Part shown: in pieces, positions 13,308 to 18,742 of the stretch | Layout: each line of letters begins with the position of its first letter | Numbering within the stretch: position 1 is the first letter of the stretch | Origin: Arsukibacterium tuosuense | GTDB taxonomy: Bacteria > Pseudomonadota > Gammaproteobacteria > Steroidobacterales > GCA-2729495 | Direction of reading: 5' to 3' | Assembly: GCA_945872065.1 (NCBI GenBank) | Contig: CAMBYH010000022.1 | Location: 1 to 33,054 of the forward strand | DNA: 33,054 bases | Position numbers and translations under genes: made by a program | Notes under the pieces: model-generated | Told to the model about the DNA's origin: nothing | Seen by the model: only the letters and a program-made list of their open reading frames with translations | Databases searched by the model: none

Positions 13308-16300
13308 CTAGGGAACGAGCCCGGAGGGTCCCGGCGGCAGGCCGAAGCGAGCCTTGAGGCGTGCGCCATCGTTGGAATCGACGACCCCGTTGCCATTCAG
13401 GTCCCGGTCCGGAAAGCTCGCCGAGCCGAAGGCCGCCTTCAGCAACGCACCGTCGTTGGAGTCGACGACACCGTTGTTATTGAAGTCCGCGTCACACAGG
13501 TTCCCATAACCATCGCCGTTGGTGTCGCGCTGGTCGGCATTCTTCACGAGCGTGCAGTTGTCCAGGGCATCCATGACCCCGTCGGCGTCCAGATCGGACA
13601 CCGGGGCTCCGCTCTCCTCGCTCCCGATCTGCTCCAGGTAGGCCACCAGCTTCGGCAGGTCAGCTGCGGGCACGGGGCGGCCATTGTGGGCCTCGATAGC
13701 GGCGGTCAGCGTCGGCGCAGAGCCATCGTGCAGATAAGGGGCTGTCGCCCACACGTCCCGCAGCGTAGGCACGTCGATGCCCGTGAGCACGCCGCCCAGG
13801 CGGTTGCCACTTGCCAGCGTCAGCGTCCCGACATTCATGACATTGCCCGCACCACTCACCGTGAAGCTTGCACCACCATGGCAGCTGGCGCAGTTCATGC
13901 TGGCGAAGACGGCCTTGCCCTCCGCCGCCAGGGTCGTCAGCGTGCCGTCGCCATTGCGCGCGGGACTCGGCGCAAAGCTGTTCAGGGACGCGAGGTAGGC
14001 GGCCAGGGCATCCAGGTCCGGGCTCAGCCCGGCTTTTGGATCGCCCAGCGGCGTACTACGCGTGCCAGCATTAAAGTTCTCGTCACTCATCAGGCCCGTG
14101 CCGCCCGCCAGGGCCCGGATCTGGCCCTCGAAGTCCTGGACCTCGTCAAAATTGTTGCTCCAGTGCAGGAAGCCCTGACCGGCAGCGCGACCCCGCAGGC
14201 TGATGGTATTGCGCAGGCCCTCGCCGAAGCCGCTCAGATCCCAGACGCGGCCGTCATGGCCACCGTCGTTATGGCAGGTGGCACAACTCATGTACCTGTC
14301 CAGGGCCAGGCGGGGGTCCCGGGCGTCATAGAACAGCTGCTTGCCGAGGAGCACGTTAGCCGGGAGCGCTTCCGTCGTCACGGACTGGAGAGTCGCCAGA
14401 CGGGGGACACTGGCCGTCCCCGAGAGCACAAGGGGTGACAGGTTGAAGACGTCAACGGTCCGGTCCATGAAATTGCTGACGTAGAGGCGGAGCCCATCCG
14501 GTGACACGAGCACGCCCTGGGGCGCCCGGCCCACGTCGAGGCGCAGGATCTGCAGGCCATCGTGGGCGCCGGCCACAACCACTTCCTGGCTGGTCTCCAG
14601 CGCCGCGAAGGAATAGACGCCCAGCTTGTCGAAAGCGATGGCACTGGTGAGGCTCGCGTTGTCGTGATCCATACGGCGGGACAGATCTTCGGTGCCGGCG
14701 CCGAGGACCAGGCGCGAGGTGATCGCCCGTACCGTGTTCTGGAAGTTGAGTCCCTGACCATCCCGGCGAACCCCGCGCAGGATGTTGTCCTGCTTCGACG
14801 GAACCAGGGCCTGGGTCCCGTCTGGCGAGATCACGGGTGCGCCCAGGTAGTTCGGTACGCCACTGCCTGCCGTCGCCGTATCCGGTACGGACAGGTGCCG
14901 AAGGATGATGGTCTGGGTCACCTGGAGCGCGGCCGTGTCGACCTGGACCACCTCGCCCCCTGCCGTGCCGGGCTGGACGATCGCGGTGCTCTCACCGGGC
15001 AGGAGGGGGGTAATGAACCGGGCGACGTACACGGTAGCCCCGTCCCAGCTGACCGACAAATGCCGCGGATTCGGGCCCACGGCAACTTCGCCAGTGACCT
15101 CCCGCAGATTGACGTCCAGGCGGAGCAGCCTGCCGAGCCCCTCCAGCACAACGTAAGCGGTGCTTCCGACGGGCGAGAACGCAAGGCCATAAGGCTCGGA
15201 ACCCCGGGGCAGCGAGATGGTGGCGGTGACCGCCAGCGTGGCGGGATCGATGACACTGATCGACGCCGACTGCTTGTTCGTGACCCAGACGCTGGCGTCA
15301 GGCGCTATAGCCACTGACCGCGGCGCCAGCTGCACAGGGATCTCTGCCAGCCGGGCATTGGTCACGGCATCGAAAGCGGTTACCGAGTCGTTGTCCCGGT
15401 TGACTACCCACAGGCGGCTGTTGCCACCCGCCGGTGCGCCGTAGGCGAGATTGCCCGACGCCGTCGGCCGGTTCGCCGTCAGCGGGAAATGCACCGTGAC
15501 GGGGGTGGTGCTGAACTGCTGCTGGCCACGGCTGTCAGTCACCGTCAACGTCACGTAGTAGATGCCGGGCGCGCTGAAGGTGTGGTCAATCGTCGGGGCA
15601 CCGGACCACTCGGTCTCCGGCGTGCCGTCGTCGAAGAACCAGCGATACTGGGGATTGATGGCACTGCTCACCACTGCATTGAAGGTGGCGGTGGAGCCGG
15701 ACAGCCGGGGGAGCTGGGCAGGCAGCGGCTCCAGCACCAGCGGGGCAATGGCGGTGATCACCCAGACGAAACTGGCGTTGGCCGCATTCACGCCGTCGCT
15801 GGCGGCGACATTCACGTTGTAGGTGCCTGGTACCGTGGGCGTGCCACTGATCAGCCCGGAAACCGGATCGATGGTCAGGCCCGTTGGCAGGCCGCTGGCG
15901 CCGTAGCCCAGCTCGTCCTGGTTGGGGTCCGTGGCCAGGAGCTGCAGGCTGACCGGCGTGCCCTCGGGCCCGGACTGGTTGGCAGGCGCCGTCAGGGTGG
16001 GAGTGATGGCGGGATTGGGGGTCGCGGCCACCGGAATCTGCACCATCCTGCTCACGGACGGTACACCCGCCGGGTTGAGGGCAAACAGCATGTAGAACCC
16101 CGGCGGGGCGTCGGCGGCCTTCGTCGGCGCCTGGACCATGATGCGACTGCCGCTGGCCACGGTAAAGGTTGCCTCGACGAAGCGTTGATCCATGTTCCAG
16201 CTGTGGGTTACCGAGCCCGTTCTGACGAGCGCCACCCGGCTGATGGGGCCGCTGCCGCCGAAGTCCAGCGGAAAGGTCTCCCCAATGTTCAGGGTGGACT

Positions 16301-17567
16301 GAATATTGGTGAGCGTCGGCCGGGCGGCCAGGCCGCCACCAGGACCGTAGAGGTATGGCGGGTAATAGATTTCAATGTTCTTGTTGTTCTGCGGGAGGCT
16401 GGAGGTGGGCGAGTTGGCGCCACCACCACCCACCATCACACTCGCATCCGGCAACAGAAGGGCCATCGAGTGATAGAGGCGGGTCCGGTCGCCCAGGGCG
16501 TGCTTGGTCCAGACGCCCGTGCTTGGGTTCCAGATCTCGGCGTAGTTGGTGGCACCCGTCAGGGAATTCCAGACTCCGCTGCCACCCGTGGCCAGCACCC
16601 GGCCGTCGGCCAGCACGGTGGCATTCACCAGCAGGCGTTTCAGGGCGAGATTGCCCGTACTGGTCACCACGGGCGAAGCGCCCGTGATATCGATGATCTG
16701 CGCCTGATTGGAGTTGCCGCCGAACTGCAGGATGCGCCCCGGCCGGTACATGGCGGCGCTGGAATCATTGCCCTTCGACCCGGTCAGCGTGGTCGGCAGG
16801 AGGGTGTAGGTGCCGGTCCCTGCCGGATTCACCTTGTACATCTTGCCGCTACTGTCGTAGCCGAAAATCAGGCCATCGGGTGCGACCCAGTTGCGGGGAT
16901 ACATGAAATTCAGGCCGCTGGTGTTGGCCTGGCTCAGCAGGCGAAAGGTGCCGTTGGTCCGCCGCACTTCTGGCCGGTCCGTGCCGCTGCTCCCGCCCTG
17001 GATGTAAACCTCCCCATTGGGGAGCGCGGTCGAGGTGGAATACCACCGGCCCCGGTTCATGTTGTTCTGGCGGGTCAGCGTGTTGTCGGTAAAGTTGAAG
17101 TAGTTGGTGTTGGGATTCGCGCTGTTGAGCACGCGCTGGGTGGAGGTATTCCACACGTCGCCACCGGCAATGAACACACCGCCGCCTTCGGGCAGGACCA
17201 GCTGGGAACTGCAGAACAGGTCGGTTGCCGTGACGTTGGGGAGCGTGAGATGCCCACCGGACAGACCCGCGCTGATATCCCACACGTCGTACTGGAAGCT
17301 GCCGCTCTGGATAGTCTGGCCCGAGAGCTCGGTGCTGCCATAAGTGAGCACCCGCTGATCCGGCAGCAGGACCGCATGAATGGGAATCAGCGGCCAGGGC
17401 GTGACGGGAGACCAGGCGCCATCCACGTTGTTGGCACGGGCCTGCTGGGCGACCAGGCAGCCGCCGACCAGGAGAATGAGTGCAGCGAGGACAACGACAC
17501 GGGCACGGTGAATCAACCTCAGCCGGAGCGTGTTGCCAGAAAGCGGCTTAGCCGGGAACGGCAGCAT
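13308..17567 (-). CDS. Secreted copper-radical oxidase fused to a diheme cytochrome c peroxidase-like domain
   Basis: The protein has 1,419 residues from the ATG at 17567; the open frame runs 37 codons further. An export signal (residues ~22-45) ends near ARA, with a possible lipobox at Cys37. Residues ~50-400 are a kelch propeller of galactose/glyoxal oxidase type and ~415-515 the DUF1929 domain. Cofactor residues align with galactose oxidase: Cys119 (DLFC), Tyr176 (GRWYS), Tyr365-His366 (RLYHS) and His455 (VTHSW). Then come Ig-like and PKD domains (~520-700), a YVTN-type propeller (~710-1050) and a cytochrome peroxidase/MauG-like domain (~1060-1310) with hemes CATCH (1095) and CASCH (1226) and APYLHDGS. 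The C-terminus has calcium-binding thrombospondin-3/dockerin-like repeats (~1325-1410). It probably oxidises an extracellular alcohol or aldehyde, making H2O2 that the heme domain could use (inference). Confidence 0.85.
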   Translation of the reverse strand: MLPFPAKPLSGNTLRLRLIHRARVVVLAALILLVGGCLVAQQARANNVDGAWSPVTPWPLIPIHAVLLPDQRVLTYGSTELSGQTIQSGSFQYDVWDISAGLSGGHLTLPNVTATDLFCSSQLVLPEGGGVFIAGGDVWNTSTQRVLNSANPNTNYFNFTDNTLTRQNNMNRGRWYSTSTALPNGEVYIQGGSSGTDRPEVRRTNGTFRLLSQANTSGLNFMYPRNWVAPDGLIFGYDSSGKMYKVNPAGTGTYTLLPTTLTGSKGNDSSAAMYRPGRILQFGGNSNQAQIIDITGASPVVTSTGNLALKRLLVNATVLADGRVLATGGSGVWNSLTGATNYAEIWNPSTGVWTKHALGDRTRLYHSMALLLPDASVMVGGGGANSPTSSLPQNNKNIEIYYPPYLYGPGGGLAARPTLTNIQSTLNIGETFPLDFGGSGPISRVALVRTGSVTHSWNMDQRFVEATFTVASGSRIMVQAPTKAADAPPGFYMLFALNPAGVPSVSRMVQIPVAATPNPAITPTLTAPANQSGPEGTPVSLQLLATDPNQDELGYGASGLPTGLTIDPVSGLISGTPTVPGTYNVNVAASDGVNAANASFVWVITAIAPLVLEPLPAQLPRLSGSTATFNAVVSSAINPQYRWFFDDGTPETEWSGAPTIDHTFSAPGIYYVTLTVTDSRGQQQFSTTPVTVHFPLTANRPTASGNLAYGAPAGGNSRLWVVNRDNDSVTAFDAVTNARLAEIPVQLAPRSVAIAPDASVWVTNKQSASISVIDPATLAVTATISLPRGSEPYGLAFSPVGSTAYVVLEGLGRLLRLDVNLREVTGEVAVGPNPRHLSVSWDGATVYVARFITPLLPGESTAIVQPGTAGGEVVQVDTAALQVTQTIILRHLSVPDTATAGSGVPNYLGAPVISPDGTQALVPSKQDNILRGVRRDGQGLNFQNTVRAITSRLVLGAGTEDLSRRMDHDNASLTSAIAFDKLGVYSFAALETSQEVVVAGAHDGLQILRLDVGRAPQGVLVSPDGLRLYVSNFMDRTVDVFNLSPLVLSGTASVPRLATLQSVTTEALPANVLLGKQLFYDARDPRLALDRYMSCATCHNDGGHDGRVWDLSGFGEGLRNTISLRGRAAGQGFLHWSNNFDEVQDFEGQIRALAGGTGLMSDENFNAGTRSTPLGDPKAGLSPDLDALAAYLASLNSFAPSPARNGDGTLTTLAAEGKAVFASMNCASCHGGASFTVSGAGNVMNVGTLTLASGNRLGGVLTGIDVPTLRDVWATAPYLHDGSAPTLTAAIEAHNGRPVPAADLPKLVAYLEQIGSEESGAPVSDLDADGVMDALDNCTLVKNADQRDTNGDGYGNLCDADFNNNGVVDSNDGALLKAAFGSASFPDRDLNGNGVVDSNDGARLKARFGLPPGPSGLVP

Positions 17568-18005: not shown

Positions 18006-18108
18006 GGCGGCACTCCTTATGGTTGTTTTTAGAGCGTCTTCTGGTTTTCGCCCGGCCCAATGCAGCACCGGGGTCGACCCAGAGACTGCGCCCCGATCAG
18101 TCGACGGG

Positions 18109-18126
18109 GTGTCAGTCGGCTGACAC
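18109..18126. promoter_or_regulatory. Operator copy 1 (Crp/Fnr-style inverted repeat)
   Basis: GTGTCAGTCGGCTGACAC has perfect 7-bp arms around four bases. The core TGTCA-N6-TGACA has the same half-site spacing as a CRP box (TGTGA-N6-TCACA). It is the nearest copy to the orphan gene, about 104 bases upstream of its start. Confidence 0.6.
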
Positions 18127-18179
18127 GGACGACGAAATAGCGCTGGAACGCGGCCGAAACCGCCGAATTTTCCCGGCGC

Positions 18180-18197
18180 GTGTCATCCGGACGACAC
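18180..18197. promoter_or_regulatory. Operator copy 2 (Crp/Fnr-style inverted repeat)
   Basis: GTGTCATCCGGACGACAC has the same 18-bp layout as copies 1 and 3. Its arms extend to 7 bp with flanking GC (GCGTGTC / GACACGC, 18178-18184 and 18193-18199). Confidence 0.6.
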
Positions 18198-18223
18198 GCA
18201 GCGCGGGTTTCCCCTCCTCCGCT

Positions 18224-18241
18224 GTGTCAGCCTCCCGACAC
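18224..18241. promoter_or_regulatory. Operator copy 3 (Crp/Fnr-style inverted repeat)
   Basis: GTGTCAGCCTCCCGACAC has 5-bp perfect outer arms and matches copies 1 and 2 in GTGTCA and GACAC at the same spacing. It lies just upstream of the likely start of the Crp/Fnr-like gene, which suggests autoregulation (inference). Confidence 0.55.
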
Positions 18242-18262
18242 GGGGTTCAGGTCAGGTCGGCT

Positions 18263-18742
18263 GTGGCCAGGAACAGACAGGCCAGCGGACCTGTGGCAGA
18301 GTCAGCGCTACTCGGCATCGACGGGCTGTCCCGGTGTGCCACGGCCCGCGCAGCACCCACCGCCGAGCTGTTCCTGATCTCCCGGGACCGGTTCCTGCAT
18401 CTGGTGGCCACGGATCCGCTGCTGTCCCTGGGCATGCTGGCCGTGTTCTGTCAGCGTCAGCGGAGCGCCAATCGCCTGATCGTGGGTGAGTACGCCCAGA
18501 AGGATATTCCGGCGCGGCTGGCCCACCGGGTGCTCGAGCTGACGGGGGAAGAACAAAGCGGCACCAGCTGCCTGGACATCACCCAGGCCGAGCTGGCCAA
18601 GTTCGTCTTCGTTTCGCGCCAGGTGGTCAACCAGTACCTGAGCGAGTGGCACAGCCGGGGCTGGGTCGCTACTTCACCCCGCCATCTGCGCGTGACCAAT
18701 CGGCAGGCCCTGGCTGCGGTGGCGGCGAGTGGCGCTAGGTAG
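18263..18742 (+). CDS. Crp/Fnr-family transcriptional regulator lacking most of the sensor domain
   Basis: The Crp-type helix-turn-helix is clear at the C-terminus (DITQAELAKFVFVSRQVV, then NQYLSEWHSRGW). It is preceded by the long dimer helix (IPARLAHRVLEL) and the last strands of a cyclic-nucleotide-binding fold (LLGIDGLSRCATARA, ELFLISRDRFLHLVA). The first ~70 residues of the sensor beta-roll are not recognisable in any frame upstream. The frame is open back to 18023, but that stretch does not resemble the family and contains the three operators. GTG 18263 is taken as start; GTG 18224, GTG 18293 or a more upstream start are alternatives. It may be a decayed gene or a ligand-independent short form. 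The stop overlaps the convergent lipoprotein gene by eight bases. Confidence 0.6.
   Translation: MARNRQASGPVAESALLGIDGLSRCATARAAPTAELFLISRDRFLHLVATDPLLSLGMLAVFCQRQRSANRLIVGEYAQKDIPARLAHRVLELTGEEQSGTSCLDITQAELAKFVFVSRQVVNQYLSEWHSRGWVATSPRHLRVTNRQALAAVAASGAR

Follow-up and report, generated by a model that had tools for sequence, protein, structure and literature searches.

A copper-radical oxidase joined to a propeller and a diheme cytochrome c domain in one predicted exported protein

What is the role of a diheme cytochrome c domain in the same chain as a copper-radical oxidase? The question is raised by a gene of Arsukibacterium tuosuense (assembly GCA_945872065.1), located on contig CAMBYH010000022.1 in a stretch of 33,054 nucleotides, which we analyzed as a whole and refer to as the window. 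The gene (13308..17567) is a single frame on the minus strand, running from 17567 to 13308 and encoding 1,419 residues plus a stop; all of its features described below lie on this strand. From the N- to the C-terminus, the protein comprises an AA5 copper-radical oxidase head, an immunoglobulin (Ig)-like domain, a PKD domain, a YVTN propeller, a diheme c domain and a TSP3/dockerin-like end. A preliminary description of the locus, made from the sequence alone, had this architecture right, as judged by, among other evidence, a Pfam search of the full protein, in which the oxidase and peroxidase families Glyoxal_oxid_N, GO-like_E_set and CCP_MauG all scored over their cut-offs in the regions proposed. 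The fusion is found in many proteobacteria. We consider the chances about even that it represents an exported copper-radical oxidase with its own heme partner in one chain, a single-chain form of the partnerships of GlxA in Streptomyces and of the AA5 alcohol oxidase in Colletotrichum.

Redox centers of the fused protein

The AA5 unit (residues 49–512, 16032..17423) consists of a kelch propeller and an E-set domain. Solved structures of galactose oxidases align with residues 49–511 (best E 4.8e-46), and the Pfam profiles Glyoxal_oxid_N (residues 113–237), Kelch_6 and GO-like_E_set (residues 416–511, E 1.6e-23) are over their cut-offs. The five copper and radical residues proposed in the preliminary description are all present at the expected motifs, since Cys119, Tyr176, Tyr365-His366 and His455 coincide in the alignment with conserved Cys, Tyr and His motifs of the solved galactose oxidases. 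We take Cys119 (17211..17213) to be the thioether partner of Tyr176 (17040..17042), the expected radical tyrosine of the RWY type, Tyr365-His366 (16470..16475) to be the axial Tyr and the first His ligand of copper, and His455 (16203..16205) to be the second His ligand. The head thus has the residues expected of AA5, namely a Cys-Tyr pair, an axial Tyr and two His. In an alignment of 26 fused proteins (that of the window, 20 from a species scan, four others and one from a plasmid), Cys119 and Tyr176 are retained in all 24 rows reaching them (two rows do not cover these positions), and Tyr365, His366 and His455 in all 26. A Trp at the W290 position, together with R330, indicates galactose activity in AA5_2 (PMC11267884). 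This Trp is absent from the window head, which has Ser194 at the corresponding spacing, and we therefore dismissed a galactose oxidase proper. The galactose-oxidase-type Trp is retained by the RGY heads of loci L025, L026 and L031 and is missing in the RWY heads.

The tail begins with a second propeller (residues 698–1060, 14388..15476) of the YVTN/hydrazine synthase β-like type. An AlphaFold2 model of residues 692–1320 (629 residues), built from an alignment of 28 tails, has a mean predicted local distance difference test (pLDDT) score of 83.1 and a predicted template modeling (pTM) score of 0.89. The best solved match of the propeller by VIA is the YVTN propeller 1l0q, with a Z of 37.6 and 1.7 Å for 283 aligned residues, followed by hydrazine synthase β (5c2v_B), with a Z of 35.8 and 2.0 Å for 305 aligned residues; propellers also lead among the 50 Foldseek matches listed for the 629-residue model. 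The second propeller expected beforehand is therefore confirmed by the model and by its solved matches. The NCBIfam profile hydrazine_BC matches the window protein with an E of 6.1e-25 and 87.5 bits, compared to a cut-off of 1250.

The diheme c domain (residues 1066–1318, 13614..14372) was assigned to the hydrazine synthase γ/bacterial cytochrome c peroxidase (bCcP)/MauG superfamily by Pfam, phmmer, sequence profile, Foldseek and VIA. CCP_MauG (residues 1070–1143, E 1.4e-9), Cytochrom_C and RoxA-like_Cyt-c (residues 1267–1293) are over their Pfam cut-offs. The two CxxCH sites noted earlier were found at residues 1095 and 1226. The heme 1 motif Cys1095–His1099 (14271..14285) is kept in 26 of 26 fused proteins, as are both Cys and the His of the heme 2 motif Cys1226–His1230 (13878..13892), which is spaced CxxxCH, instead of CxxCH, in L017, L019, L020 and L022. 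The CCP_MauG profile and two c-heme motifs, which define the bCcP/MauG superfamily, are thus each found in all 26. Two c hemes, PYxHDG and an inter-heme Trp are shared with bCcP, YhjA, MauG, MbnH and BthA as a group, although the Trp is absent in BthA, according to PMC6405878. Trp1136 (14160..14162), the counterpart of this residue in bCcP and MauG, is invariant in the 26 proteins and is matched by hhalign to a Trp of a MauG-like protein.

The residue at the position of the sixth ligand of heme 2 distinguishes the window protein from this group. We take this ligand, partly from PMC6405878, to be Met in bCcP and Tyr in MauG. Counted from PYxHDG, His1294 (13686..13688) matches the Met of bCcP and the Tyr of MauG-like proteins encoded near some of the fused genes; neither Met nor Tyr is present at this position in the alignment, where His1294 is found in 26 of 26. 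Since His1294 occupies the ligand position, heme 2 is suggested to be a bis-His heme, as is the γ-II heme of hydrazine synthase (PMC12607021).

The methods disagree on the nearest relative of the domain. Its sequence profile ranks hydrazine synthase γ first (1.5e-20), ahead of bCcP (5.8e-19) and MauG (1.2e-8), while a single-sequence phmmer search places the YhjA peroxidase 9qdt (4.7e-14) narrowly ahead of hydrazine synthase γ (1.4e-13). With the domain modeled alone, VIA gives hydrazine synthase γ first (Z 12.0, compared to 10.9 for bCcP/MauG), and Foldseek gives YhjA 9qdt first and hydrazine synthase γ third, a structural ranking that is weak evidence owing to the low confidence of this model (pLDDT 64.5). 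We therefore place the domain between hydrazine synthase γ and the cytochrome c peroxidases. The MauG/peroxidase-like label of the preliminary description holds as far as the CCP_MauG profile goes; the methods divide between the peroxidases and hydrazine synthase γ, and the propeller–diheme half resembles the hydrazine synthase β–γ pair no less than a classical cytochrome c peroxidase.

Hydrazine synthase β–γ (5c2v chains B and C) has the same order of propeller and diheme domain and is among the best solved matches for both. It differs in having no AA5 head and in a third heme-bound cysteine (γ Cys165), which is missing in the window protein, where residues 1060–1320 hold only the four CxxCH cysteines. 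For this reason, and because the hydrazine_BC score is far below its cut-off, the window protein was dismissed as a hydrazine synthase. A rubber oxygenase was likewise dismissed, as the window protein scores 20.2 bits with RoxC and 16.5 bits with RoxB against NCBIfam cut-offs of 900; the RoxA structure 4b2n matches the diheme model with a VIA Z of 8.2. A fused hydrazine synthase β–γ is known in Ca. Scalindua japonica, and fused β–γ relatives of the enzyme are highly prevalent among environmental bacteria (PMC12758564). According to that paper, relatives outside anammox bacteria are without the residues that matter most for hydrazine synthase function. The AA5–diheme fusion family is one branch of such fused β–γ relatives, for which a partner enzyme is probable.

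Occurrence and history of the fusion

In the taxonomic family of the window, 40 genomes were covered, counting its own; full-length relatives were found in its own genome and in one of seven congeners, with 73% identity between the congeneric orthologue and the window protein; G009, of the same family, matched only with an AA5 part. A scan of one genome per species gave 30 loci. Twenty have the AA5 and diheme parts in a single open frame, two of them being cut inside the head at a contig edge, and three (L015, L027 and L032) have both parts in a broken or cut frame; in L033 there is AA5 alone, in L034 and L035 the tail alone, and L037–L040 match solely by the C-terminal module. The interrupted frames of L015 (3535-7884) and L032 (7868-13022) reflect either sequencing error or decay. 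The tail was detected at an E of 1e-40 or better in five of 369 class-sampled genomes (seven loci, four with an AA5 head), and in three of 398 phylum-sampled genomes (four loci, of which the window's and that of G465 have an AA5 head). PF09118 occurs in 13 of the 369 class genomes at 21 loci, four of which are fused proteins already counted and some of the remainder of which end at contig edges. Five of 72,556 plasmid records match, and CP099607.1 alone does so over most of the length; its copy is annotated merely as a discoidin domain-containing protein. Records of Piscinibacter, Rhizobacter, Rivibacter and Azohydromonas that are not labeled as metagenome bins have the same domain order. A chimeric assembly was dismissed, given the identical order in many independent records, including one complete plasmid.

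The arrangement proposed for the window protein thus recurs in its homologs, with GO-like_E_set and CCP_MauG profiles in all 26 aligned fused proteins. Accessory profiles vary among them: PKD is found in 23, PA14 in 18, RoxA-like_Cyt-c in 16 and F5/8 type C in five. Because binding modules differ between fused proteins, no single substrate is implied. No title or abstract among the open-access literature matches listed describes an AA5–cytochrome fusion, in agreement with the preliminary description, which knew of no described enzyme of such an arrangement; since the literature covered was open-access papers, the novelty is provisional. Reference 44 in PMC11267884 concerns another bacterial AA5 fusion, in which the oxidase is joined to an inactive CE3 domain, not to a redox domain.

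Heads and tails have different histories. The tail tree was built from 35 diheme domains (L015 dropped) and the head tree from 44 AA5 domains (L019, L020, L032 and L095 dropped). A starred branch (98/95) sets the 28 AA5-linked tails, two of which (L027 and L032) have a cut or broken head, apart from seven AA5-less tails, a group that carries a long-branch warning. The RGY-type heads of L025, L026, L031 and L135 form a group of 12 rows (100/100) together with further gammaproteobacterial AA5s, both fused and free, and the RWY-type heads, the window's among them, are in another clade (19 rows, 100/99). The tails of the same four loci, however, share a starred 23-row clade with the window's tail (99/95). 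A single clade for the 19 heads of this tail clade was rejected in the approximately unbiased (AU) test with a p-AU of 6.5e-5, a descriptive value, as the group was picked once the trees were seen. The conflict therefore requires an exchange of heads or tails. All 25 fused heads and eight free ones form one unstarred group (88/81), and the pattern may reflect a single ancient fusion event, after which heads were exchanged and tails lost. To judge from these sequences, the tail stays with AA5 heads without being bound to one specificity. Since it accompanies AA5 heads of differing predicted specificity, its role should concern the Cys-Tyr site and the H2O2 that these heads share.

The seven AA5-less relatives (L034, L035, L051, L052, L053, L058 and L059), in which the AA5 profile detected no head, have other N-terminal regions of roughly 450–500 residues. 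In the four of these regions that were scanned, Pfam gave nothing besides a weak LVIVD repeat in L058, and the N-terminal head of L034 has no match among PDB sequences. The propeller–diheme module may serve generally as a partner of various heads.

Precedents, neighboring genes and remaining features

Two known systems pair an AA5 oxidase with a heme peroxidase. In liquid culture of Streptomyces lividans, mature GlxA was not seen when the copper chaperone Sco or DtpA, a heme peroxidase, was missing, except on addition of copper, and DtpA forms Compound I with H2O2 from GlxA (PMC4736821). This system shares with the fusion an AA5 oxidase and, for maturation at low copper, Sco and an H2O2-using heme peroxidase. 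It differs in that the proteins are separate and the peroxidase is a monoheme DyP, whereas here a diheme c domain is joined to a propeller. In Colletotrichum, a secreted peroxidase converts an AA5 alcohol oxidase from the inactive Cu(II)-nonradical to the active form, as followed by electron paramagnetic resonance (EPR), and this activation needs no highly efficient peroxidase activity (PMC9770985). The Perox–AlcOx pairs of Colletotrichum and Magnaporthe (PMC9770985) likewise consist of a secreted AA5 oxidase and a dedicated heme peroxidase, but they are encoded by two genes and the peroxidase is of the fungal class II type. A glyoxal oxidase is also reactivated by peroxidase plus mediator (PMC10928124). 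Moreover, sco co-occurs with such oxidase genes in certain Burkholderia (PMC4736821).

An SCO1/SenC gene, for a copper chaperone, lies within 3 kb of the fused gene in nine of 28 fused loci (L011, L015, L023, L024, L025, L027, L028, L031 and L032), compared to none of 17 free AA5 loci and none of seven AA5-less tail loci; full 3-kb flanks were available for 17, 11 and five of these loci, respectively. Six of the nine calls (L024, L011, L023, L028, L031 and L032) were confirmed with the Pfam family SCO1-SenC, and those of L015, L025 and L027 are based on our own profile and BLAST clustering. The free AA5 control consisted of L033 and, from the 17 unfused loci of the class scan, all but G074. 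Several of these loci end at contig edges and are in some cases perhaps truncated; the control does not extend to the free AA5s of L036 and L008. The GC-based gene caller is weak on the lower-GC loci L048–L050 and L057, where neighbors are under-read; the SCO profile was run on all frames. With an SCO neighbor, as in a third of the loci, the fused protein resembles the trio of oxidase, heme protein and Sco of Streptomyces, with two of the partners in one chain. The genome of the window has SCO and cytochrome c assembly genes, located away from the fused gene.

Other neighbors were noted in several loci. On plasmid CP099607.1, the fused gene is followed by a monoheme protein (CVNCH) and an SCO family protein, with protocatechuate dioxygenase genes ∼2.5 kb from the fused gene; a homologous small cytochrome-like gene is located near the fused gene in L025, L031 and L032. 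Separate MauG/MbnH-like diheme genes adjoin the fused gene in L050 (10758-11987, minus strand) and L057 (11012-12460, plus strand); their products score over the cut-off with CCP_MauG and below it with NCBIfam profiles. L030 has a fragment of a homolog at its edge. In L084 (535-4389, minus strand), a DHOR-type diheme gene is found next to a free GlxA-like AA5 gene, an unfused counterpart of the pairing. In Rivibacter subsaxonicus (L036:3189-12986), two free AA5 genes lie immediately upstream of the fused gene.

The start at 17567 yields an N-terminus resembling a signal peptide (residues 1–43, 17439..17567), which, on a reading of the sequence, suggests an exported protein; an alternative upstream ATG would lengthen it to 1,456 residues. 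VGGC at residues 34–37 could alternatively be a lipobox, so that the window protein is ambiguous in this respect; its nearest relative (L011) is without a lipobox cysteine. Many of the fused proteins are probably lipoproteins, since 14 of 26 have a lipobox-like stretch ending in SCGG or ACGG. Between head and tail are an Ig-like He_PIG spacer (residues 523–605, 15753..16001) and a PKD domain (residues 623–692, 15492..15701; profile match at residues 623–687), both over their Pfam cut-offs. The C-terminal module (residues 1321–1419, 13311..13607), where the TSP_3 and Dockerin_1 profiles are marginally under their cut-offs, is also recognized by its recurrence in the genome: three further proteins encoded there carry a version of ∼97 residues, ending near PPGPSG, with 71–80% identity, and it is found with 48–75% identity in other genomes (L002, L003, L004, L009, L010 and L037–L040). 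It is perhaps a shared tag for export or attachment. The region upstream of the fused gene holds a divergently oriented gene (18023-18742, plus strand) that encodes a Crp-like helix-turn-helix (HTH_Crp_2).

Possible functions of the fusion

In the reading that we favor, and hold with about equal belief and doubt, the AA5 head would oxidize an alcohol or aldehyde and yield H2O2. The propeller–diheme tail would be fed by this H2O2 and, in some species, also by a small cytochrome c; it would help the copper–tyrosine site reach its active radical state and clear excess peroxide, with copper delivered by SCO. The preliminary description had proposed a self-contained extracellular oxidation unit, with the peroxide used on site or electrons passed to the hemes. 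Handling of the peroxide within the same chain is indeed the best-supported part of that proposal, given the precedents from Streptomyces and Colletotrichum (PMC4736821, PMC9770985); because the distal-pocket residues of bCcP, MauG and BthA are not recognizable, that the peroxide is consumed is something we infer. Activation or maturation of AA5 by a heme peroxidase, and the SCO gene linked in relatives, had not been considered.

Several observations weigh against this reading. Hydrazine synthase γ, a close relative of the diheme domain, is no peroxidase. A distal Gln-Pro-Glu set is described as conserved in bCcP, MauG and BthA (PMC6405878), but in the diheme domain of the window protein no Gln is followed by Pro at +4 and by Glu at +10, and Leu1159, ten residues after Gln1149, is kept in 26 of 26 fused proteins; the alignment of the distal loop is uncertain, as hhalign gives no firm placement. 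The low confidence of the diheme domain when modeled alone (pLDDT 64.5) adds to this. The MauG-like neighbors in L050 and L057 do have the Gln/Pro +4/Glu +10 spacing, and their presence means that the fused domain could be not doing the job alone. For 19 of the 28 fused loci, including that of the window, the flanking 3 kb show no SCO gene; full flanks were missing for 11 of the 28. The profile used to detect SCO was built on seven of the nine positive loci, which favors the fused group. Seven tails exist without AA5 heads. GlxA maturation in the Streptomyces DtpA mutant is regained when copper is supplied (PMC4736821), and for one glyoxal oxidase, removal of peroxide mattered little and a mediator worked best (PMC10928124).

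A possibility that we rate as tentative, and rather less probable, is that the hydrazine-synthase-like tail is a dedicated maturase and re-oxidase that forms or regenerates the Cys-Tyr radical of the head by means of the head's own peroxide, and that it stayed across AA5 lineages since all of them need this same task.

It is unlikely that the fusion serves oxidative attack, in which H2O2 (or O2) at heme 1 would oxidize a second, polymeric or aromatic substrate in the manner of MauG or RoxA, with PA14, discoidin or dockerin-like modules anchoring the enzyme on it. The kinship of the diheme domain to MauG and, more distantly, RoxA is consistent with such a role, as are the RoxA-like_Cyt-c (16 of 26), PA14 (18 of 26) and F5/8 type C (five of 26) profiles and the dioxygenase genes near the CP099607.1 copy. 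However, the RoxA-like match in the window protein spans only 27 residues around PYLHDG, and similar PYxHDG stretches are seen elsewhere in the superfamily; the distal residues used by MauG are unrecognizable, and the binding modules vary among members.

More doubtful still is an electron relay, in which electrons from the copper site would pass through the hemes to a small cytochrome c and the respiratory chain, so that the enzyme would be a dehydrogenase and not an oxidase. In L025, L031, L032 and CP099607.1, the fused gene occurs with a monoheme cytochrome-like gene, but a cytochrome c is equally expected as the donor of a peroxidase. Through His1294, heme 2 may be an electron-transfer heme comparable to the bis-His γ-II heme of hydrazine synthase (PMC12607021). 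The Ig and PKD spacers and the second propeller nevertheless separate the centers in sequence. The characterized AA5 enzymes are two-electron oxidases using O2, which also counts against a relay. Least probable is a tail that acts as a separate sensor or binding module (for nitric oxide (NO), O2 or redox state), attached to the oxidase purely for localization: similar tails do occur with other heads in L034, L035, L051–L053, L058 and L059, and heme γ-I of hydrazine synthase binds NO (PMC12607021), but the AA5-linked tails are separate from the others and, in the loci covered, only they are linked to SCO, an indication that the function of the tail is tied to the copper enzyme.

Copper-radical oxidases are useful biocatalysts limited by loss of the radical state, and peroxidase is added in the laboratory to maintain their activity (PMC9770985, PMC10928124). 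If the oxidase and its heme partner do work together as we propose, a natural single-chain enzyme would come with its own activator. One branch of the widespread hydrazine-synthase-β–γ-like proteins would also gain a suggested function, and the help of heme proteins in the maturation of copper-radical enzymes would become directly testable.

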